Assembly (NCBI RefSeq): GCF_025917315.1
Contig: NZ_CP080627.1
Location: 3,658,001-3,722,000, forward strand
Direction: 5' to 3'
Origin: Halomonas qaidamensis
GTDB lineage: Bacteria; Pseudomonadota; Gammaproteobacteria; Pseudomonadales; Halomonadaceae
Length of the DNA: 64,000 bases
In this document: piece after piece, positions 7,924 to 18,700 of the stretch
How positions within the stretch are numbered: the stretch's first letter is position 1
Layout of the letters: each line of letters opens with the position of its first letter
Made by a program: the position numbers and the translations under genes
The notes under the pieces: model-generated
Seen by the model: only the letters and a program-made list of their open reading frames with translations
Database searches by the model: none
Told to the model about the DNA's origin: nothing

Positions 7924-8757
7924 TTAGTTGAGCGTGACACGCCCGTCAAAAACACGTGTGGCAGGGCCCACCATTACCAGCGATGATTCAGGGTCTGGCC
8001 ACTCAATACTGAGCTGCCCTCCTGGCAAATGAACATTCACCGGACTTTTCAACAGCCCCTGCCGAATACCGCTAGCCACCGCAGCACAGGCACCGGTACC
8101 GCAGGCAAGCGTCTCACCACTGCCGCGCTCATATACTCGCAAACGAATTTCGCTGGGTGACACCACCTGCATAAAGCCCACGTTAACCCGCTTAGGAAAG
8201 CGAGGGTGGGACTCAAGCAGCGGCCCAAGATGCTCAACGGGCGCACTATCAACACTTTCCACCTGTAACACGGCATGGGGATTGCCCATTGAGACAACCC
8301 CTAGTTCCAGCGTGTCACCATCGACATCGACAGCGTGTAGCGGCTGATCACCCGGTGCTTCAAACGGCAGTGTGGCGGGGTTAAAGCGCGGTCGGCCCAT
8401 GTCAACACGCACCATACCGTCGTGCTGAACATTAAGTACCAAGGGCCCACCGGCAGTTTCCACATGAATTTCATGCTTATGGGTCAGGCGCTGATCACGG
8501 ACAAAACGAGCAAAACAGCGTGCCCCATTGCCGCAATTTTCAACTTCACTGCCATCGGCATTAAAAATGCGGTAGCGAAAATCCATTTCCGGATCTCGGG
8601 GTGGCTCAACCACCAGTAATTGGTCAAAACCAATACCAAAGCGCCGATCTGCCAGCTGGCGAATCTGTTCATCACGCAGGCGAGCCCGCTGAGTAACTAG
8701 GTCCACCACCATAAAATCATTACCCAGACCATGCATTTTGGTGAAGTGCAACAGCAT
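7924..8757 (-). CDS. dapF: Diaminopimelate epimerase
   Basis: DapF converts LL- to meso-diaminopimelate for peptidoglycan and lysine. The 277-residue protein has two pseudo-symmetric halves, each supplying one catalytic Cys: [12 protein letters not shown] (near residue 73) and [15 protein letters not shown] (near 220). The N-terminus [19 protein letters not shown] is classical and fixes the start at 8757, where the ATG overlaps the lysA stop (TGATG). It acts directly before LysA in the pathway and is encoded directly after it. Confidence 0.97.
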
Positions 8758-10028
8758 CAGCGCCCCCCTTCCGGCAGAAGTGTTTCGCCGGCCCACAGGC
8801 TTTCCAGGCTTTCCCGTGCGCGCACCACATGGTAGCTGCTGCCATCGACCATCACTTCAGGAGGGCGCGGACGGCTATTGTAATTCGACGCCATCACAAA
8901 GCCGTAAGCGCCTGCTGATCGAACGGCCAGTAAATCGCCCTCAGCAATTGCTAGATCGCGCTCTTTACCGAGAAAATCACCAGTTTCACAGACAGGACCA
9001 ACAACATCATAGACCGCACGTTCGCGCTGCTGGCGGGTATCCACCGGCACAATAGCTTGCCATGCCTGATACAACGCGGGACGGATCAGGTCATTCATAG
9101 CGGCATCAACAATCGCGAAATTTTTGGTTTCACCGGGCTTTAAAAACTCTACACGGGTCAACATTAAGCCCGCGTTAGCCGCAATAGAGCGACCTGGCTC
9201 AAAAAGCAACGTAAGCGCTTCACCACCCTCCCAGCGAGACAGGCGCGCCAGCAGCTGGCTTGCATAATCAAACGGTTGGGGTGGCTTTTCATCACGATAG
9301 GGAACACCTAGCCCACCACCCAGATCCAAGTGATCAATTTCAATACCACGCTCACGCAGCCGCTCCATTAACATCAAGAGCCGCTCTAGCGCATCTAGAA
9401 ATGGTGCAGTTTCGGTAAGTTGAGAACCGATATGGCAGTCTAGCCCGGTGACGCGCAAATTAGGCAAACTGGCGGCGAGGCTGTAAACATCTAGCGCCTC
9501 ATCCACTGGAATACCAAACTTGTTATCTTTCAGCCCAGTAGAAATGTACGGGTGGGTGCCAGCGTCCACATCCGGGTTTACCCGCAGTGATACCGGCGCC
9601 ACCTTGCCAAGCTCTGCTGCGACAGCATTTAGCCGCTCAAGCTCGGGACGGGATTCAACGTTAAAGCATTTAATGCCAACCTCAAGCGCGCGGGCCATTT
9701 CATGCGGCTGCTTGGCCACGCCTGAAAACACCACTTTTGATGGGTTGCCGCCCGCTTTCAGTACGCGCTCAAGCTCGCCGATCGAAACAATATCAAACCC
9801 AGCCCCTAACCGTGCGAGCAAACCCAGCACCGCCAAGTTGGAATTGGCTTTCACTGCATAACAAATCAGATGAGGATGGCCACCCAGGGCTTCGGTATAG
9901 GCTCGAAAATGGCGCTCTAACGTTGCTTTTGAGTAGACATAACAGGGCGTACCAAGATCAGCAGCGACCTGAGTAAGCGGGACATCTTCGGCATAAAGCA
10001 CGCCATCACGATAGTTAAAGTGATCCAT
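8757..10028 (-). CDS. lysA: Diaminopimelate decarboxylase
   Basis: LysA is a PLP-dependent fold-III decarboxylase making L-lysine from meso-diaminopimelate. The 423-residue protein shows [12 protein letters not shown] with the PLP lysine (about residue 60), the HIGSQ loop, [17 protein letters not shown] for phosphate binding, and VCETGDFLG with the intersubunit catalytic Cys. Its start overlaps the lptM stop (TAATG) and its stop overlaps the dapF start, so lptM-lysA-dapF are translated as a coupled unit. Confidence 0.97.
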
Positions 10029-10159
10029 TACCCCTCCTGCTCGGCAGCCGAACCCTGAGTGTCTTCGTCAGGCATATAAAGCGGCCCTTTCTGGCCGCAG
10101 CCCACTAATAACAGCGTGACCAGCAGCACCGTACTAAAGATGGTAGTCACACGCTTCAT
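10028..10159 (-). CDS. lptM: LptM (YifL)-type small lipoprotein
   Basis: A 43-residue lipoprotein gene is squeezed between argH and lysA. The product starts [20 protein letters not shown] and continues with Cys21 and [14 protein letters not shown]. The hydrophobic signal, lipobox LLVGC, and the GCGQKGPLY motif after it are the signature of LptM/YifL. In E. coli this protein helps oxidative maturation of the LPS translocon LptD. Its ATG overlaps the argH stop (ATGA) and its TAA overlaps the lysA ATG. It is too short for many gene callers but its context (next to lysA/dapF) is conserved in proteobacteria. Confidence 0.93.
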
Positions 10160-11559
10160 GCATCACCTTTCAGCGCAGCTAACGCCTCGCTAGCACGGCT
10201 GGCAGCGGCGCGAACCTGGTCAGGCGCGGTGCCACCGATATGGTTACGGGCGGCAACAGAACCCTCTAATGTGAGCACCTCAAACACATCCTGCCCAATC
10301 GTGGCAGAGAACTGCTGCAACTCTTCAAGGGTCATTTCAGACAGATCTTTCTTAGTCTTCAAGCCGTAAGCCACCGATTGACCGACAATTTCATGGGCAT
10401 CGCGGAAGGCGACGCCTTTGCGAACCAAGTAATCAGCAAGGTCCGTGGCGGTAGAGAATCCGCGACGCGCTGCTTCATACATGCTGTCTTTTTTCGGTTC
10501 AATAGCAGGCACCATGTCGGCAAAGGCTTTTAAGCAGTCGCGCACGGTATCAACGGCGTCAAACAGCGGCTCTTTATCTTCCTGATTGTCTTTGTTGTAG
10601 GCCAGGGGCTGAGACTTCATTAGCGTAAGCAGCGCCATTAGGTGGCCATAGACTCGACCGGTTTTGCCACGCACCAGTTCGGGCACATCCGGGTTTTTCT
10701 TCTGCGGCATAATAGAAGAGCCAGTACAGAAGCGGTCAGGCAGGTCGATAAAGTCAAACTGGGCGCTGGTCCACAGCACCAGCTCTTCACTCATCCGCGA
10801 CAGGTGCATTAACAAAATGCTGGCGAAGCTGGTGAATTCGATCGCAAAGTCTCGGTCGGACACGGCGTCCAGCGAGTTTTCTGCGGGGCGATCAAAGCCT
10901 AGCAATTCGGCGGTGACATGGCGGTCAATGGGATACGTGGTGCCGGCCAGCGCCGCTGCGCCCAAGGGCATGACATTGACGCGCTTGCGGCAGTCCAACA
11001 GGCGCTCGTGGTCACGGGTTAACATCTCTTGCCATGCCAATAGGTGGTGGCCAAAGGTCACCGGCTGCGCCGTTTGTAAGTGGGTGAAACCGGGCATGAT
11101 GGTATCGGCTTCACGATCGGCAAGCTCAATCATGCCTTCGCGCAGGCGAACCAACTCCGCTTCGATCACATCGATCTCATCGCGCATAAACAGGCGAATA
11201 TCCGTCGCCACCTGGTCGTTACGTGAACGGCCTGTGTGTAGCTTTTTACCGGTAATACCAATTTTATCCGTCAACCGTGCTTCAATATTCATGTGCACGT
11301 CTTCAAGCGGGATTGACCAGTTAAACTCGCCACGCTCAATTTCGCCCTGAATCTCGGTGAGCCCATTGATAATGGTGTCGCGCTCATCATCGGTTAGTAC
11401 ACCGACTCGCGCTAGCATAGTGGCGTGGGCAATCGAGCCCTGAATATCCTGACGCGCTAGGCGCTGATCGAAAGTCACAGACGCAGTGAAGCGTGCAACA
11501 AAGGCATCGGTGGGCTCGCTAAAGCGACCGCCCCAAGACTGGTTCGTAGCTTGGCTCAT
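10156..11559 (-). CDS. argH: Argininosuccinate lyase
   Basis: ArgH catalyses the final step of arginine synthesis, splitting argininosuccinate into arginine and fumarate. The 467-residue protein opens [23 protein letters not shown], carries [13 protein letters not shown] for substrate binding, [10 protein letters not shown], and the superfamily signature [20 protein letters not shown] around residue 280. I prefer the ATG at 11559 (MSQATNQSW): an AGGA element lies ten bases upstream, whereas the ATG at 11568 sits almost on top of it. It heads the argH-lptM-lysA-dapF-DUF484-xerC-HAD series. Confidence 0.95.
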
Positions 11560-11654
11560 CGGAGGCATATCCTGCTGACAAAACTAAAGGAATCGTTATA
11601 AGAAAGTGTACCAGAGTCGCCGCACTCAGCGGCATGCCGTTTTTTAGTCGTTTT

Positions 11655-14105
11655 TCACATGGGGTGCGGCTCAGCATCATTGCGGGGGTGGTGAGATTCA
11701 TTTAAGTAGCTACTGATCGCTAACATGGGCATCGGGCGGGCAAAGTAGAAGCCTTGAAAATGCGCGCAATAACGGGCATTGAGATACGCATATTGTGCAG
11801 CTGTCTCCACACCTTCAATTAAAACTTCCAGGCCCAGCTTAACAGCCATGGTCACCACACCATCAACAATGGCAGCGTCCCGAGTGTCGTTAACGACATC
11901 ACGAATAAAGGAACGATCGATTTTAAGCTTGTTGATCGGTAAACGTTTTAGGTAGCTAAGGCTTGAAAAACCGGTTCCGAAATCATCCAGAGCAATATGC
12001 ACACCTAATGCGCGCAGATCCTGCAATGTTTGTATGGCGTGCTCAGTACTGTCCATTAGCACGCCTTCGGTAAGCTCTAACTCTAATAAATCAGGCGCTA
12101 GGCCTGTCTGCTCAAGCACACGCTGAATAGATAGCAAAAAGCCAGCACGCTGAAACTGCATCGGCGAAATATTAACCGCCATTGTAACGGGCATCGTTGT
12201 GCGCGCATTCAGCTCGACCGCATCACGGCATGCCCTCTCCAGCACCCACTCACTAATCGGCATGATCTGCCCAGTGTCTTCTGCCAGACTAATAAACTGG
12301 GCGGGGGAAATATAACCACGCTCGGGGTGATACCAGCGAATCAGTGCCTCTACCCCCGTCACCCGGCCAGTAGCACCCTGTATTTGCGGCTGATAATGCA
12401 GCTCAAACTGCGACTGTTCGATGGCCTGTTGTAACGCGTGTCGTAAATTAACCCGCTTAGTCACTTTTCGATTTAACTCATCGGTGTACCACTGATAAGT
12501 ATTGCGCCCTTGCCGTTTGGCTTTATACATCGCTAAATCAGCCTGCTGTATTAGCTGGCGCGGCTCGCTAATCGTTCCATCATCAGTGGCAATGCCCATA
12601 CTCGCCGTAATACGCAACTCGCTGTCACGATACCAGTAGGGCGCAGAAAGACGCGCAAGCAGTCGTTCCACTACCTGCAACACATCTTGTTCGTGAGCCA
12701 AATCAGGTAGCAAAACGATAAATTCATCACCACCAAAACGCGCCACGGTATCCCAGGGACGCAGCTCTTCTTCCAGGCGCTTGGCGACCTCAATTAAAAT
12801 GTGATCGCCTACATCGTGCCCTAGCGTATCGTTGATCGGCTTGAAATCATCCAGGTCGACAAATAGCACGGCAATGTATCGGCGATAACGCTTGGCTAAC
12901 AGGCAACCTTGCGACAGCCGCTGATCAAGCATTAATCGGTTAGGTAGGCCGGTTAATGCATCATGACTGGCGTTATGGCGAAGCTGAGCTTGATATTCAC
13001 GCTGCGCGGTAATGTCATTTTGTACGCCTACAAAGTGCGTCACAAGGCCAGCGGCATCTCGTACAGGAGACACATATAGGTCATTCCAAAACGGCACTCC
13101 ATTACATCGGTAGTTACGTATAACGACATGTACGTCTTGCTGGGCATAAATGCCTTTGCGCAGCTTAGCCAAGGTAGCTGGATCCGTTTCTTCACCCTGA
13201 AGAAACCGGCAATTTTGCCCTAACGCCTTAGTGCGGGAGTAGCCCGTAATCCGCTCGAAGGCTGCGTTCACATAAACCATCGGTAAATCTTGACGCTGGG
13301 CATCAACGATAATTACGCCGTTTGTGCTTGCTTCAACGCTACGCTCCAGCAGTGTGAGCTGTCGTTCAGTCGCCTTGCGCTCAGTAATGTTTTGGGTTGA
13401 TCCCTGAACCTGAATAATCTGCCCCAACTCATCACGTACGGCTTTGCCAATCACTCTCACCCACAGCCTTACCGCTTGCCGAGTAACGATTTCTAGTTCC
13501 TCATCAAAGCTGGTTCCGCTCTCGCAACAGGCACTAAACACTTCACGGATACGTGGCCGAGAGCTAGGCGCGTAAAAGGTCATCGCTTCTTCAATGGTCG
13601 GCTTAAAACCATCGGGGACGCCATGTAGACGGCACACTTCATTCGACCAAATGGGCAACCCTTCGGCCATATCCACGTACCAACCCCCTATCAGCGCCGT
13701 TTCGCCAGCAATTTGAAACAGCCGTTGATTACGAATGAGCTGTTTCTCAACGGCTTTTCGGCGGGAAATATCGCGGGCGATCACGTAGATAACACGATCA
13801 CCCGCTGCGGCGGTCACTTCTAACCACACCACTTTTCCTTCTGCCGTCAGTGCTCGAACGTCAAACGGAGCTACTTTCTTGTGGGACTGGAGACGCGACA
13901 ACGCCTCTTCAATAACCGGGATATCTCGATGGTCTACTAGCTTGCTACATGGCTTACCAACCCATTCGCTGGCGGAATAACCCAGCAAGTTTTCAAACAT
14001 CGGGTTGATGTTGAGTAAGATACCTGCGAAATCAATACAGATGAATAAGTCTTGTGACAACAGGAAGAATTGGTCTAGCTTGCCTTGAGGATTAACAAAG
14101 GGCAT
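11655..14105 (-). CDS. PAS-PAS-LOV-GGDEF-EAL cyclic-di-GMP enzyme, predicted blue-light sensor
   Basis: The 816-residue cytoplasmic protein has, in order, two PAS domains (about 10-120 and 130-250), a LOV-type PAS domain (about 255-367), GGDEF (about 380-540) and EAL (about 560-805). The LOV domain has the flavin-binding motif GQNCRFLQG with the photoactive Cys at residue 299 (bases 13209-13211), NYRCNGVPFWN, PVRD and FVGVQ, all positions typical of true LOV photoreceptors. The cyclase site RFGGDEF is intact and preceded by an RxxD inhibitory site (RPWD) at the correct five-residue distance. The phosphodiesterase site is also intact: EALIRW, ELTEG, DDFGTGFSS, K in NKLKID, EGVET. It should both make and degrade c-di-GMP. 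The ATG at 14105 has AGGTGG upstream; a TTG at 14132 is less likely. It is divergent from hemC. Confidence 0.93.
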   Translation of the reverse strand: MPFVNPQGKLDQFFLLSQDLFICIDFAGILLNINPMFENLLGYSASEWVGKPCSKLVDHRDIPVIEEALSRLQSHKKVAPFDVRALTAEGKVVWLEVTAAAGDRVIYVIARDISRRKAVEKQLIRNQRLFQIAGETALIGGWYVDMAEGLPIWSNEVCRLHGVPDGFKPTIEEAMTFYAPSSRPRIREVFSACCESGTSFDEELEIVTRQAVRLWVRVIGKAVRDELGQIIQVQGSTQNITERKATERQLTLLERSVEASTNGVIIVDAQRQDLPMVYVNAAFERITGYSRTKALGQNCRFLQGEETDPATLAKLRKGIYAQQDVHVVIRNYRCNGVPFWNDLYVSPVRDAAGLVTHFVGVQNDITAQREYQAQLRHNASHDALTGLPNRLMLDQRLSQGCLLAKRYRRYIAVLFVDLDDFKPINDTLGHDVGDHILIEVAKRLEEELRPWDTVARFGGDEFIVLLPDLAHEQDVLQVVERLLARLSAPYWYRDSELRITASMGIATDDGTISEPRQLIQQADLAMYKAKRQGRNTYQWYTDELNRKVTKRVNLRHALQQAIEQSQFELHYQPQIQGATGRVTGVEALIRWYHPERGYISPAQFISLAEDTGQIMPISEWVLERACRDAVELNARTTMPVTMAVNISPMQFQRAGFLLSIQRVLEQTGLAPDLLELELTEGVLMDSTEHAIQTLQDLRALGVHIALDDFGTGFSSLSYLKRLPINKLKIDRSFIRDVVNDTRDAAIVDGVVTMAVKLGLEVLIEGVETAAQYAYLNARYCAHFQGFYFARPMPMLAISSYLNESHHPRNDAEPHPM

Positions 14106-14240
14106 GGCGCCACCTAACGGGTGAATGGCCAAACAGTGCCGTCATAAATTTGACCGGTTATTTTTACTGTGTGGCTGGGTGCTTTATGATGAGACTTATC
14201 ATAGTTCGTCGCGCAGTGTCAGCGGCAAAGGGAGAATAAC

Positions 14241-15185
14241 GTGTCATCCATTACTAAATTGCGCATCGCTACGCGTAAAAGTCAGTTAGCCATGTGGCAG
14301 GCCGAACACGTCCGCGACCGTTTAATGGCGGCACACAGCGGCTTGGAAGTCGAACTCATCGCACTTTCCACAAAAGGCGATAAGATTCTCGATACACCGC
14401 TTTCAAAAATTGGCGGTAAAGGTCTTTTTGTCAAAGAGCTGGAAGATGCCATGCTCGATGGACGTGCCGATATTGCCGTACATTCAATGAAAGATGTGCC
14501 TATGCATTTTCCTGAAGGGCTAGGACTTTCCGTTATTTTGGAAGGTGCCGACCCAACCGATGCATTTGTATCCAATCATTATAACAGCATTGACGAGCTA
14601 CCTGAGGGAGCTCGAATCGGTACTGCTAGTTTGCGCCGTGGTTTGCAGATGCGAGAAGCACGCCCTGATCTGCAAATCCTCAACCTACGCGGTAACGTAC
14701 AGACCCGTTTGGCAAAATTAGATGCGGGCGACTTCGATGCCATTATTCTCGCCACCTCTGGCTTAAAGCGCCTGGGACTTGATGCGCGCATTGCTCAGGC
14801 ACTTCCACCTGAAATCTGCCTTCCCGCCTGTGGTCAAGGGGCGCTAGGCATCGAGTGCCGTCTGCATGACCCAGAGTTAATTGGCTTATTAGCCCCACTG
14901 GATGATCCCGATACAGCGACTCGTGTGCGTGCCGAACGTGCAATGAACACCCGCCTGGAAGGCGGCTGCCAAGTACCTATCGCAGGACATGCCATACTTG
15001 ATAAGACAAACGACACTATTTGGCTACGTGGCCTAGTCGGCAACCCTGAAGGCACCGAGGTACTACGCGCTGAGGGCAGTGGCTCTATCCATGAACCTGA
15101 AGCCTTGGGCATCCGTATCGCCGAAGAGCTGCTGGATCAAGGGGCCGGCGATATTTTAGCCGAGGTGTATGGCCGCAACGTATGA
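14241..15185 (+). CDS. hemC: Hydroxymethylbilane synthase (porphobilinogen deaminase)
   Basis: HemC polymerises four porphobilinogens into hydroxymethylbilane for heme/siroheme. The 314-residue protein has the N-terminal [16 protein letters not shown], the substrate/cofactor segment [14 protein letters not shown], and [12 protein letters not shown] with the Cys that binds the dipyrromethane cofactor. It starts with GTG, with GGGAG six bases upstream. It is the first gene of hemCDXY, and hemD starts within its end (ATGA overlap). Confidence 0.97.
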
Positions 15186-15961
15186 GTCTACCGGTACTGA
15201 TCTGTCGCCCTGGTGACCGCGGAGAGGCGTTAACAGCCACGCTGCATGCTCAAGGTGCTCTTGTGGAGCACCTTGATGTCATGCGTTTGGAAACACTGCC
15301 TGAAGATCCCGCCCTGCGAAGCACATGGTTAAACATTGATCAGTACCACAAAATAGTGGTGGTCAGTCCTTTCGCCGCTTACTGTTTAAGCGAAGCGTTT
15401 GATCGCTATTGGCCACAGCTTCCTGTGGGCATCGACTACTACAGCGTAGGCCGAGCTACGGCAAATGTATTATTTGAACAGCTAGGCGTACGTGTTCATA
15501 TGCCTTCGCCTAGCCATGGAGAAGACACGAGTGAGGCACTGCTGTCTCTTGCCTCACTCCAAACGCTCACGCATCAGCGTGTACTTCTGGTAGCTGGAGA
15601 AGGTGGCCGCACATTATTAGCCGAGACGCTGAGTGCGCGGGGGGCCAACGTTACCCGTGTTGCTGTGTACCGGCGCGTATATCAAGCGCCCCTACCAGCC
15701 ATGCAACAACGTCTATTAACCGGCGATTATCGAGCGTTAATCGTGACGAGCAGCGAACTGCTTGAACATCTGGCAAAATGGTGTGAACACGCAGCGTTGA
15801 ACCAACCGCTAATCGTTTCCAGTCACCGTTTAGCTAAACTGGCCGGTAAACTGGGTTTTCGTGACCTCAAGGTGGCGTCGGGAGCAACGCCCGCTGCATT
15901 GGCAGCGGCGTTAAGTCGGTTCTGCAACCCAAAGGGTGCCGATGTCGATCAAGGAACTTAA
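15182..15961 (+). CDS. hemD: Uroporphyrinogen-III synthase
   Basis: The 259-residue HemD closes and inverts ring D of hydroxymethylbilane. The family is poorly conserved; recognisable parts are the opening [32 protein letters not shown], the [22 protein letters not shown] hinge region, VAVYRRVY and the [10 protein letters not shown] segment. The ATG overlaps the hemC stop, so translation is coupled. hemX follows after 16 bases. Confidence 0.93.
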
Positions 15962-15977
15962 TAAGGGCTAGCGACAG

Positions 15978-17438
15978 ATGAGCAAACAACCAAACGATCA
16001 GGAAGGCGTACAGAACACGTCTGCCGAGGCATCTCAAAGCGACGCTAAACCGAGCGACACTTCCGCGTCAGCTTCGCCAAGCAATGAGACGTCAACGCCA
16101 GGCAATGCGGCAGCATCTTCTTACGCTGCTAAAAACAGCCGCTCGCGTCGCCGTAACAAGGGAGGCAACAGCACTCCCCACGCCAGCACAGTGTCAACGA
16201 ATGCCAGCCATGGTGAAGCTTCGACCCAATCAAGTGCTGATACCAAACAAGCGGCCGATACAAAGCCAGCAGCAGACGATAAACCGTCAGCAGGCGCCAA
16301 AACGGCAGGCGCTAAGCCAACAAACAGTGGCAGTCATGCGTCTGGAAATGCTGCGCACGTCCCACCTACTGCCAACAACGCTAGCAACAACAGTGGTGGT
16401 GGTAACAAAGGCAGTGGTATCGCCATTGTGCTGGTGATTATCCTGGCTCTGGCCATTGGTTTTGTCGCTTGGCAAGGATGGCAGCGCTTGGATAACCAGC
16501 AGCAGCGTATTGACGAGCTCGCCCAGCAAACGCAAAACAATGCCTCACAGCAGGAAGTGAACGATCTAACATCGCGTATTGAAAGCAGTGAAGCTGAACG
16601 CAGCCAGGCGCTAGAAAACACGATGAGCGAACTACGTAGCGAGCTGGATAGTTATCGTGGTGAGGTCAACAACACACTAGACAACGTGCTGGCGCAGCTT
16701 TCTCAAGAGCAGGAGACCGACGAGCGCGACTGGTTACACGCCGAAGCCGCTTATCTGCTGCGTCTAGCTAACCAGCGCTTGCAGCTGGAAGGTGATGTTG
16801 AAGGCGCTGCTGCATTGCTGCGCACTGCTGATGCGCGCTTAGTCGATGCCGACAATCCAGCGTTAACACCAGTACGCCGTGAAATTGCTAATGAACTGGC
16901 TGCTCTTGACGCCGTGCCGCAAGTTGACCGCACTGGCATCTATCTTGCGCTGAACGCTCAACAAGAGCGTATCGCTGGCCTACGCCTATCGCAAGAAATT
17001 GAGGAGCGTGCCGTTACCTCTGGTATTGAGCAGCCACCCACGGGCACCTTCCAACGTCAGTTGGCCCGCTTTGGTGAAGAGTTAAAAGATCTTGTAGTGA
17101 TCCGTCAGCATGACGAGGCATTAGAAACATTGATTACTCCAGAGCAAGAGTCCTACCTGCGTCAAAGCCTACGCTTGATCCTTGAACAGTCCCAGCTGGC
17201 GCTGCTCAAAGAAGAGCAAGAACTGTACGAAGCAAGTATTGATAAGGCGCTGGAACTGCTCAACGGCTACTACGACACCGAACGCGAAGAGACGCAAAGC
17301 GTTATTGCTCGCCTGCAAGAATTGAAGCAAACCCAGGTACAACCTGAGCTACCGGATATCAGCGCTTCTCAACAGGCGCTAGCAAGCTTCATTGAGAACC
17401 GTTTTGAGTCGCGTCGCCAAGGTGGAGGTGATGCATGA
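15978..17438 (+). CDS. hemX: HemX family membrane protein
   Basis: The 486-residue single-pass inner-membrane protein of the hemCDXY cluster is often annotated as uroporphyrinogen-III C-methyltransferase, but has no SAM-dependent methyltransferase motif that I can see. Residues 1-145 are low complexity (Ala, Ser, Asn, Thr, Lys, Gly) with an SRSRRR basic patch near 55 and imperfect repeats of the ADTKQAAD type. The membrane helix is about 147-166 (IAIVLVIILALAIGFVAW), followed by a predicted periplasmic coiled coil (about 170-245) and a conserved alpha-helical domain beginning WLHAEAAYLLRLANQRL. The role in heme metabolism is unproven. hemY overlaps its stop. Confidence 0.9.
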   Translation: MSKQPNDQEGVQNTSAEASQSDAKPSDTSASASPSNETSTPGNAAASSYAAKNSRSRRRNKGGNSTPHASTVSTNASHGEASTQSSADTKQAADTKPAADDKPSAGAKTAGAKPTNSGSHASGNAAHVPPTANNASNNSGGGNKGSGIAIVLVIILALAIGFVAWQGWQRLDNQQQRIDELAQQTQNNASQQEVNDLTSRIESSEAERSQALENTMSELRSELDSYRGEVNNTLDNVLAQLSQEQETDERDWLHAEAAYLLRLANQRLQLEGDVEGAAALLRTADARLVDADNPALTPVRREIANELAALDAVPQVDRTGIYLALNAQQERIAGLRLSQEIEERAVTSGIEQPPTGTFQRQLARFGEELKDLVVIRQHDEALETLITPEQESYLRQSLRLILEQSQLALLKEEQELYEASIDKALELLNGYYDTEREETQSVIARLQELKQTQVQPELPDISASQQALASFIENRFESRRQGGGDA

Positions 17439-18700
17439 GAAAATTAATTCTCTTAATTGTTGCCGGTCTCGCGGTCGGCGCACTGTTTGGGCACCTGATG
17501 ATGTCAGTGCCTGGTTATTGGCTAATACGCGTTGGTGACACCTCGCTACAAACGTCATTCTGGTTTGGCTTGGTGCTGCTGCTAGGCGCGTTTATTGTTT
17601 TGCATTTTGCGCTACGTTTGCTCTCCGGCATTATTCGCCCAGTCGGACGCTTTCGCACTTGGAACAGCCGAGCCCGCAACCGTCGCGCGATGAAACGCAC
17701 CGTGCGCGGTTTGGTTGCTTTAACTGAAGGCCGCTGGAAAAAAGCTGAGAAAACGTTGGTACGCGCGGCTGACGATTCCAGCACACCTCTTGTGAATTAT
17801 CTTTCTGCGGCACTGGCAGCGCATTACCAAGGCCATCATGAAAAATCCCAGGAGCATTTGAATCAAGCACAGCTCACCACTGACGGAGCCGACACGGCCA
17901 TCGGCCTAATGCAGGCTCAACTGATGATTGACCGTCAGCAGCCTGAAGAGGCACTGGCCATTCTGAGCCGGCTGGATAAGAAACTGCCCAACCACCCTCA
18001 AGTGCTCAAGCTTCTTAAGCAAGTCCACCTAAGCGTTAACGACTGGGAAGGCCTACGCCGTTTAATACCGCGTCTAGCTGCACAAAAACTGATCACCCAG
18101 CAAGAGCGTGAACAACTGGAGTTTAAAGCGTACCGCGAGCTGATTGTTTTTGAGGCTAAAAACCCCACTAACATTGAGCGCGTGCGAGGCCTCTGGGCCG
18201 ATATGCCGGACTATCTACGGGGCAATACCGAACTCATCGTGCTTTACACCGAAGCGCTTTTACAAGCCAACGAAGAGCCGATTGCCGAGCGCTTGCTCAA
18301 CCATTCGTTGGATAACCACTGGGATGCGCGCTTGGTTAAACGTTATGGCTTAATCAACGTTGATGCCGCCCGCCAATTAGCAAAAGCGGAAAAGTGGTTG
18401 CAAGAGCGTCCTAACGACCCCGAACTCCTGCTGGCCTGTGGTCGGCTGTCGCTGCGGACTGGCAAATGGGAGAAAGCGCTGGAGTACTTTGAAGCTAGCC
18501 AGCGCCAACGTCCTAGTGGTGAAGTTTGTGCAGAACTTGCACGCCTCTATGCAAGTCTTGGCGAGCACAACAAAAGTCAGCTCTATTACCGCCACAGCGT
18601 CGATATGCTCGCTAAGTCACTGCCTTCGCTCCCACAGCCAAGCGATGCTAATGACAGCAAGCAAAGCGAACCCCAAACGTCCGTTAAGAAAAGCGCGTAA
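17435..18700 (+). CDS. hemY: HemY family TPR membrane protein
   Basis: The 421-residue protein has two N-terminal membrane helices (about 4-24 and 42-62) with the HemY_N signature PGYWLIRVGDTSLQTSFWFGL, then tetratricopeptide-like helical repeats (about 85-400) exposed to one side of the membrane. It has no similarity to the protoporphyrinogen oxidase also called HemY. The family is proposed to act with HemX in heme supply; its mechanism is not established. The ATG overlaps the hemX stop and the gene ends the operon in front of a strong terminator. Confidence 0.92.
   Translation: MRKLILLIVAGLAVGALFGHLMMSVPGYWLIRVGDTSLQTSFWFGLVLLLGAFIVLHFALRLLSGIIRPVGRFRTWNSRARNRRAMKRTVRGLVALTEGRWKKAEKTLVRAADDSSTPLVNYLSAALAAHYQGHHEKSQEHLNQAQLTTDGADTAIGLMQAQLMIDRQQPEEALAILSRLDKKLPNHPQVLKLLKQVHLSVNDWEGLRRLIPRLAAQKLITQQEREQLEFKAYRELIVFEAKNPTNIERVRGLWADMPDYLRGNTELIVLYTEALLQANEEPIAERLLNHSLDNHWDARLVKRYGLINVDAARQLAKAEKWLQERPNDPELLLACGRLSLRTGKWEKALEYFEASQRQRPSGEVCAELARLYASLGEHNKSQLYYRHSVDMLAKSLPSLPQPSDANDSKQSEPQTSVKKSA

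Follow-up and report, generated by a model that had tools for sequence, protein, structure and literature searches.

A predicted blue-light receptor of the LOV-GGDEF-EAL kind, encoded by an optional gene at the argH-hemC locus in Halomonas

The gene at 11655..14105 on the minus strand of the window (the whole 64,000-nucleotide stretch of Halomonas qaidamensis DNA that was analysed) encodes a PAS-PAS-LOV-GGDEF-EAL protein that is, on balance, probably a blue-light receptor with light-raised hydrolysis of c-di-GMP as its main output. Its domains, diagnostic residues, conservation among orthologs, linker length and locus were established directly in this analysis. The predicted output is favoured because the linker between LOV and GGDEF belongs to the 21-residue class and because of the precedent of SL2, a LOV-GGDEF-EAL protein of Synechococcus elongatus described as a blue-light-activated c-di-GMP phosphodiesterase (PMC8846402, PMC5812497). 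The protein type is already known and frequent, with a 2014 survey giving about 18% as the share of 1390 bacterial LOV proteins that carry GGDEF or GGDEF plus EAL (PMC4844311); the Halomonas protein is a well-preserved new example. Within the literature on Halomonas with LOV/blue light or with c-di-GMP/blue light, titles and the opening parts of abstracts revealed no prior report on it. For Halomonas, the gene is a candidate, and a well-supported one, for a blue-light input to c-di-GMP, a signal for swimming versus sticking.

Results

Gene, start codon and domain layout

The reading frame extends over 11655-14132 and would give 825 amino acids from a TTG at 14132 or 816 from an ATG at 14105. 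The ATG appears the likelier start, because among nine orthologs with printed starts (G/D/N)AMP stands at the ATG in seven and PMTP in two. An earlier note on this DNA had ended the gene at 14105 and placed the photoactive cysteine at residue 299, and both agree with this choice: 14105 is the ATG start, and counting from that ATG gives Cys299 (308 from the TTG). All other residue numbers given here count from the TTG.

11655..14105, minus strand: PAS-PAS-LOV-GGDEF-EAL protein, 816 aa from the ATG (825 aa from the TTG at 14132)
13755..14057, minus strand: first PAS domain, PAS_4, residues 26-126 (Pfam)
13401..13649, minus strand: second PAS domain, PAS_3, residues 162-244 (Pfam)
12981..13367, minus strand: LOV segment, residues 256-384, with GQNCRFLQG, RNY, FWN and GVQN (Pfam, motifs, PDB matches, orthologs)
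13209..13211, minus strand: codon of the predicted adduct-forming Cys299 (Cys308 from the TTG); Cys in 52/52 distinct syntenic orthologs (motif)
12954..13016, minus strand: LOV-to-GGDEF linker, 21 residues, from the Asp of DIT to the Leu of DxLT (definition from PMC10396304)
12501..12971, minus strand: GGDEF domain, residues 388-544 (Pfam)
12750..12761, minus strand: RPWD, the RxxD inhibitory-site motif (motif, orthologs)
12720..12734, minus strand: GGDEF signature (motif)
11733..12440, minus strand: EAL domain, residues 565-800, full catalytic set (Pfam, motifs, orthologs)
10156..11568, minus strand: argH, next downstream gene on the same strand after an 86-base gap; outside the cassette
14241..15185, plus strand: hemC, divergent neighbour; outside the cassette

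The proposed PAS-PAS-LOV-GGDEF-EAL order is borne out by Pfam matches far beyond chance and by the order of the motifs. Besides the two PAS domains, Pfam places PAS_9 at 272-376, GGDEF at 388-544 (6.2e-48) and EAL at 565-800 (1.8e-75), PAS_9 being the family described as taking in LOV (PMC8846402). The motifs run GQNCRFLQG, RNY, FWN, GVQN, RPWD (RxxD), GGDEF, EALIRW, NISP, ELTEG, DDFGTG, KLKID, IEGVE and QGFYF. Around the gene, Rfam returned no RNA element at the gathering score (8000-18000), and scans of 11500-14400 for promoters (one promoter-like hit against a shuffle mean of 2.9) and terminators (four terminator-like against 3.3) did no better than shuffles.

The third sensory domain contains everything that had been claimed for it, namely GQNCRFLQG, FWN and GVQ, in that order. 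The canonical GxNCRFLQ with its adduct cysteine reads GQNCRFLQ here; N340, N350 and Q371, which we take to be the flavin-ring residues, are in place, as are the two phosphate-binding arginines R309 and R325, the latter presumably contacting the FMN phosphate. Against the Protein Data Bank, 133 distinct solved sequences match the LOV segment at E <= 1e-10. The best are 'histidine kinase' 9vf7 (7.9e-38) and 6rhg (1.5e-33), in whose displayed alignments the LOV motif appears, followed by 'Blue-light photoreceptor' 2pr5 (1.2e-29), and among the 60 matches listed the names include LOV domain, blue-light photoreceptor, aureochrome and phototropin. Each of the three printed alignments matches the N-C-R...Q motif, both Asn and the Gln to solved LOV-type sequences. 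Assignment as a photoactive-type LOV domain is supported at the level of sequence.

Both enzymatic domains are residue-complete in the window protein, as the earlier note had stated. The GG(D/E)EF signature, the metal Asp and RxxD are present, and all 16 GGDEF-domain positions tested are intact, their catalytic and metal roles being our assumption. The EAL domain retains the EAL, Asn, Glu, DD, Lys, Glu and Gln set at 13 positions, which we presume to be the catalytic ones. A pseudogene or a degenerate GGDEF is ruled out for the window protein by these intact motifs. Among solved structures, the GGDEF-EAL tandems nearest to this one are 5m3c, deposited under the name 'Diguanylate cyclase', the 'Motility regulator' entries 4rnh/4rnf, and DosP; we take 4rnh to be MorA, and all of these proteins to act chiefly as phosphodiesterases. 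The best-scoring NCBIfam model is that of the phosphodiesterase DibA (NF045675), with 530.1 bits over residues 211-805; membership of this equivalog was rejected, the curated cut-off being 980.

The linker and characterised relatives

Measured from the Asp of D(I/V)(T/S) to the Leu of DxLT, as defined in PMC10396304, the LOV-GGDEF linker has 21 residues in 52/52 orthologs (51 by pattern, L162 by eye). According to that source, two LOV-GGDEF constructs with 21-residue linkers, cut from LOV-GGDEF-EAL proteins, had no light-regulated synthesis; one was without the GGDEF residues, the other kept them but had been truncated, and the authors consider that truncation may matter. The same authors deem light action on the EAL domain plausible in LOV-GGDEF-EAL proteins (PMC10396304).

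The arrangement found here, with LOV directly before GGDEF-EAL and a 21-residue linker, is that of SL2 (Cao et al. 2010), a LOV-GGDEF-EAL protein with a canonical LOV; the LOV-GGDEF linker in the constructs of the 2010 SL2 study is given as 21 residues long (PMC10396304). The Halomonas protein differs in having two extra N-terminal PAS domains, the likeness being one of description rather than of compared SL2 sequence, and light-raised phosphodiesterase activity was measured for SL2 whereas it is predicted here. The LadC group of LOV-activated diguanylate cyclases likewise places LOV directly before GGDEF, with 21 residues in its short-linker subfamily, but its members were picked for one LOV and one GGDEF, whereas the Halomonas protein adds an EAL and two PAS domains (PMC10396304). 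Short-linker cyclases without an EAL are described as moderately light-activated, on the order of 15-fold, and the long-linker class (35 residues, no EAL) as switch-like (PMC10396304); with 21 residues and an EAL, the Halomonas protein falls outside the latter. RmcA of Pseudomonas aeruginosa resembles it in having several PAS domains, one of them LOV-like, and it is a c-di-GMP phosphodiesterase that has been linked to a light response; the LOV-like PAS of RmcA is, however, described as lacking the cysteine that the Halomonas LOV has (PMC8846402).

Conserved and variable residues in the ortholog set

Syntenic copies were collected from an even draw of 61 genus genomes, the own genome included, and from the best 80 of 592 confirmed loci of a named genome collection; among those 80, the best named match over the whole protein was Halomonas alkaliantarctica FS-N4 (L060), at 99%. 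This gave 63 intact copies, of which 52 are distinct over the last 600 amino acids. Interrupted frames (L082, L127, L168, L169, L170) were dropped; within each of the pairs L127/L168 and L082/L170, the two rows seem to come from one record. In L168 and L170 (contigs of 4,998,083 and 4,207,221 bases) both the gene and argH are broken and, since argH is broken too, sequencing or frameshift error is likely, rather than real pseudogenes.

Invariant in all 52 are the LOV Gly, Asn, Cys, Arg, Gln, Asn, Asn and Gln, the RxxD motif and the 13 EAL positions. The FMN-phosphate Arg position (R325) varies, with 40 R, 5 K, 4 H and 3 Q (12/52 not Arg), and so do the two signature glycines: the first is G in 51 and D in one (DGDEF), the second G in 30 and S in 22 (GSDEF). 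The other 14 of the 16 tested GGDEF-domain positions are invariant in 52/52. On a quick core tree of 60 rows, eight of them outgroup, the glycine state (glycines masked) changes at least four times. The side-module state, which combines the number of PAS domains (one to three) with the presence or absence of a C-terminal extension and was estimated from lengths, changes at least 12 times within the set of 52. Pfam on four orthologs agrees with the length-based layouts, and in L048 and L067 it finds a C-terminal receiver after the EAL (PAS-PAS-LOV-GGDEF-EAL-REC); L166 and L167 also have a C-terminal extension, judged by length only.

Relatives at other loci (55 distinct LOV-GGDEF-EAL or GGDEF-EAL proteins, mutually non-independent) carry RxxD in 24/55 and the LOV Cys in 46/55. 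Two of the nine without the Cys (L090, L099) are LOV-like with Gly at that position, and the other seven have no LOV alignment at that place or are cut. Cysteine loss within LOV-like relatives is rare, and the contrast of 52/52 with 46/55 is weaker than the counts suggest, as only two LOV-like relatives have lost the residue.

Constraint on the domains

Among 23 two-PAS orthologs, mean dN/dS falls from PAS1 (0.173) and PAS2 (0.149) to LOV (0.091), EAL (0.078) and GGDEF (0.056), the pairs used differing by domain (47-63). Where the same pairs served for all core domains, those outside a core dS of 0.2-2 having been dropped, the means for LOV, GGDEF and EAL were 0.079, 0.053 and 0.065 in the GSDEF group and 0.103, 0.075 and 0.112 in the GGDEF group. 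The GGDEF domain is thus lowest in both groups, with overlapping spreads (SDs for this domain 0.028 in the GSDEF group, 0.045 in the GGDEF group and 0.013 in the main GSDEF clade). Relaxed constraint on the GGDEF domain of GSDEF orthologs was looked for and is absent: 0.053 (22 rows, 169 pairs) compares with 0.075 (29 GGDEF rows, 157 pairs), and the main GSDEF clade gives 0.040 (18 rows, 127 pairs). These low values counter a history in which the cyclase is decaying in GSDEF orthologs. With the lowest mean in both groups, the domain is in use in each, whether for catalysis or as a site of regulation by GTP. A GSDEF site need not be dead, since in PMC4395868 a mutation close to an imperfect GSDEF site is interpreted by the authors as raising its activity.

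An optional cassette between argH and hemC

argH and hemC form a fixed backbone into which the gene fits as an optional cassette. Presence or absence was assigned by comparing gene and hemC positions and confirmed on extracted loci. hemC is found in 61/61 sampled genus genomes and is adjoined by the gene in 44 (interrupted in three, G046, G047 and G054); in the remaining 17, argH adjoins hemC across a gap of 151-286 bases. A quick argH + hemC tree of 58/61 loci, the three interrupted ones left out, requires at least five presence/absence changes. Empty L141 and filled L041 are close sister loci whose flanks have 96.2% and 95.6% DNA identity, and what L141 is missing corresponds almost exactly to the coding stretch. 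The pattern looks like a recent precise loss or allele replacement.

This distribution bears on the suggestion, made from its position beside hemC, that the gene may be connected with porphyrin synthesis. The connection is not supported: argH and hemC are neighbours without the gene in 17/61 genomes, transcription runs toward argH and away from hemC, and nothing was found that links the gene to hemC or haem synthesis. In one genome of the draw (G004:C55:202929-203867) hemC lies within a 594-codon frame, against 326-330 codons in most others.

Predicted light inputs in the same genome

Searches of the own genome gave 37 matches to the protein at E <= 0.001, two PilZ matches and no BLUF match at E <= 0.001. 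The LOV segment has two matches at E <= 1e-15, the gene and a 157-codon short-LOV frame at C1 ~2,592,800 (L018:1456-1926), which has YRDCRFLQ, NYRKDG, FWN and GVQ and retains the cysteine. Judged by these similarities, the cell is rich in GGDEF/EAL proteins, and this gene accounts for one of the two LOV-type light inputs found in it.

Discussion

We are able to propose a mechanism for this protein. FMN bound in the third sensory domain would, together with Cys299, form a light-driven adduct, after which the LOV dimer (its dimerisation is presumed) would rearrange. The EAL domain would receive this movement by way of the 21-residue linker and GGDEF, and its phosphodiesterase activity would rise, such that blue light would lower c-di-GMP; the direction and both enzyme activities are predictions. 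The GGDEF domain would be kept functional as a GTP-binding regulator, perhaps also as a feedback-inhibited cyclase; further inputs may come from the two PAS domains at the N-terminus. In favour of this account are the full LOV signature with its matches to solved LOV photoreceptors, the identity of the closest solved tandems (5m3c, 4rnh/4rnf, DosP), and the fixation of the LOV and 13 EAL positions in 52/52 orthologs while a GGDEF glycine and the side modules change. Our confidence that light acts on the EAL is limited because the GGDEF domain is the most constrained of all. That constraint, together with RxxD in 52/52 orthologs (24/55 elsewhere), would be expected if synthesis with product inhibition matters, and argues against hydrolysis as the main output. 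So does the nature of the two constructs from which the linker argument is drawn, the first without GGDEF residues and the second truncated, as do the reported light activation of short-linker LOV cyclases without an EAL, on the order of 15-fold (PMC10396304), and the indication that GSDEF may be active (PMC4395868).

The earlier note had proposed that, both sites being intact, light may switch the net direction of the enzyme. In this form, both sites would work and light would shift the balance between synthesis and hydrolysis, the PAS inputs possibly determining whether the net direction is reversed. The completeness of both sites and the tight constraint on the GGDEF domain fit such a switch: RxxD and the 16 GGDEF-domain positions are intact and, save the two signature glycines, invariant in 52/52, and the GGDEF domain has the lowest mean dN/dS. 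Yet the second glycine is Ser in 22/52 and the first Asp in 1/52, while the LOV adduct residues and the EAL set are complete, and the linker is of the short class. A switch of net direction is less likely because all 52 orthologs have the 21-residue linker and SL2 is described as a light-activated phosphodiesterase (PMC8846402); we regard the bifunctional reading as unlikely, if deserving of attention. A light-activated diguanylate cyclase with a minor EAL activity seems quite improbable: the intact GGDEF and RxxD would suit it, as would the light activation of stand-alone short-linker LOV-GGDEF cyclases, but it is the EAL positions that are invariant in 52/52 and the GGDEF glycines that vary, and the two LOV-GGDEF pieces described without light-regulated synthesis, one of them without the motif, point the other way (PMC10396304). 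It is also improbable that the role of the LOV in the cell is to sense redox state or to act as a structural PAS, and not to receive light. The LOV-like PAS of RmcA, without its Cys, is implicated in regulating the RmcA phosphodiesterase (PMC8846402), and one FMN-phosphate Arg position is not Arg in 12/52 orthologs; against this, the adduct Cys is kept in 52/52 at the locus and in 46/55 relatives elsewhere, and its loss within LOV-like relatives is confined to two cases (L090, L099).

Light-raised hydrolysis of c-di-GMP remains our preferred account, and what the present work modestly adds is a series of orthologs from a single locus. Their side modules differ around a constant light-to-EAL core, and the 52 proteins would form a panel for the effects of PAS, receiver and GSDEF on a LOV-controlled enzyme. 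A wider and highly speculative view, to which we attach little probability, sees the argH-hemC cassette as a natural series built on a single light-gated core, which has been re-wired under one, two or three PAS domains, in some cases with a receiver, and carries either GGDEF or GSDEF. The gain would then be set by light, and the other modules would decide whether c-di-GMP is made or destroyed, such that related species might read the same blue light with opposite sign.

Some relatives at other loci depart from the canonical LOV residues. L090 and L099, both from Billgrantia, have Gly in place of the LOV cysteine, and L095, L115, L117, L118, L120 and L124 have Leu, Val or Ala in place of the active-site glutamine. 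These eight proteins are possible natural variants of LOV photochemistry.
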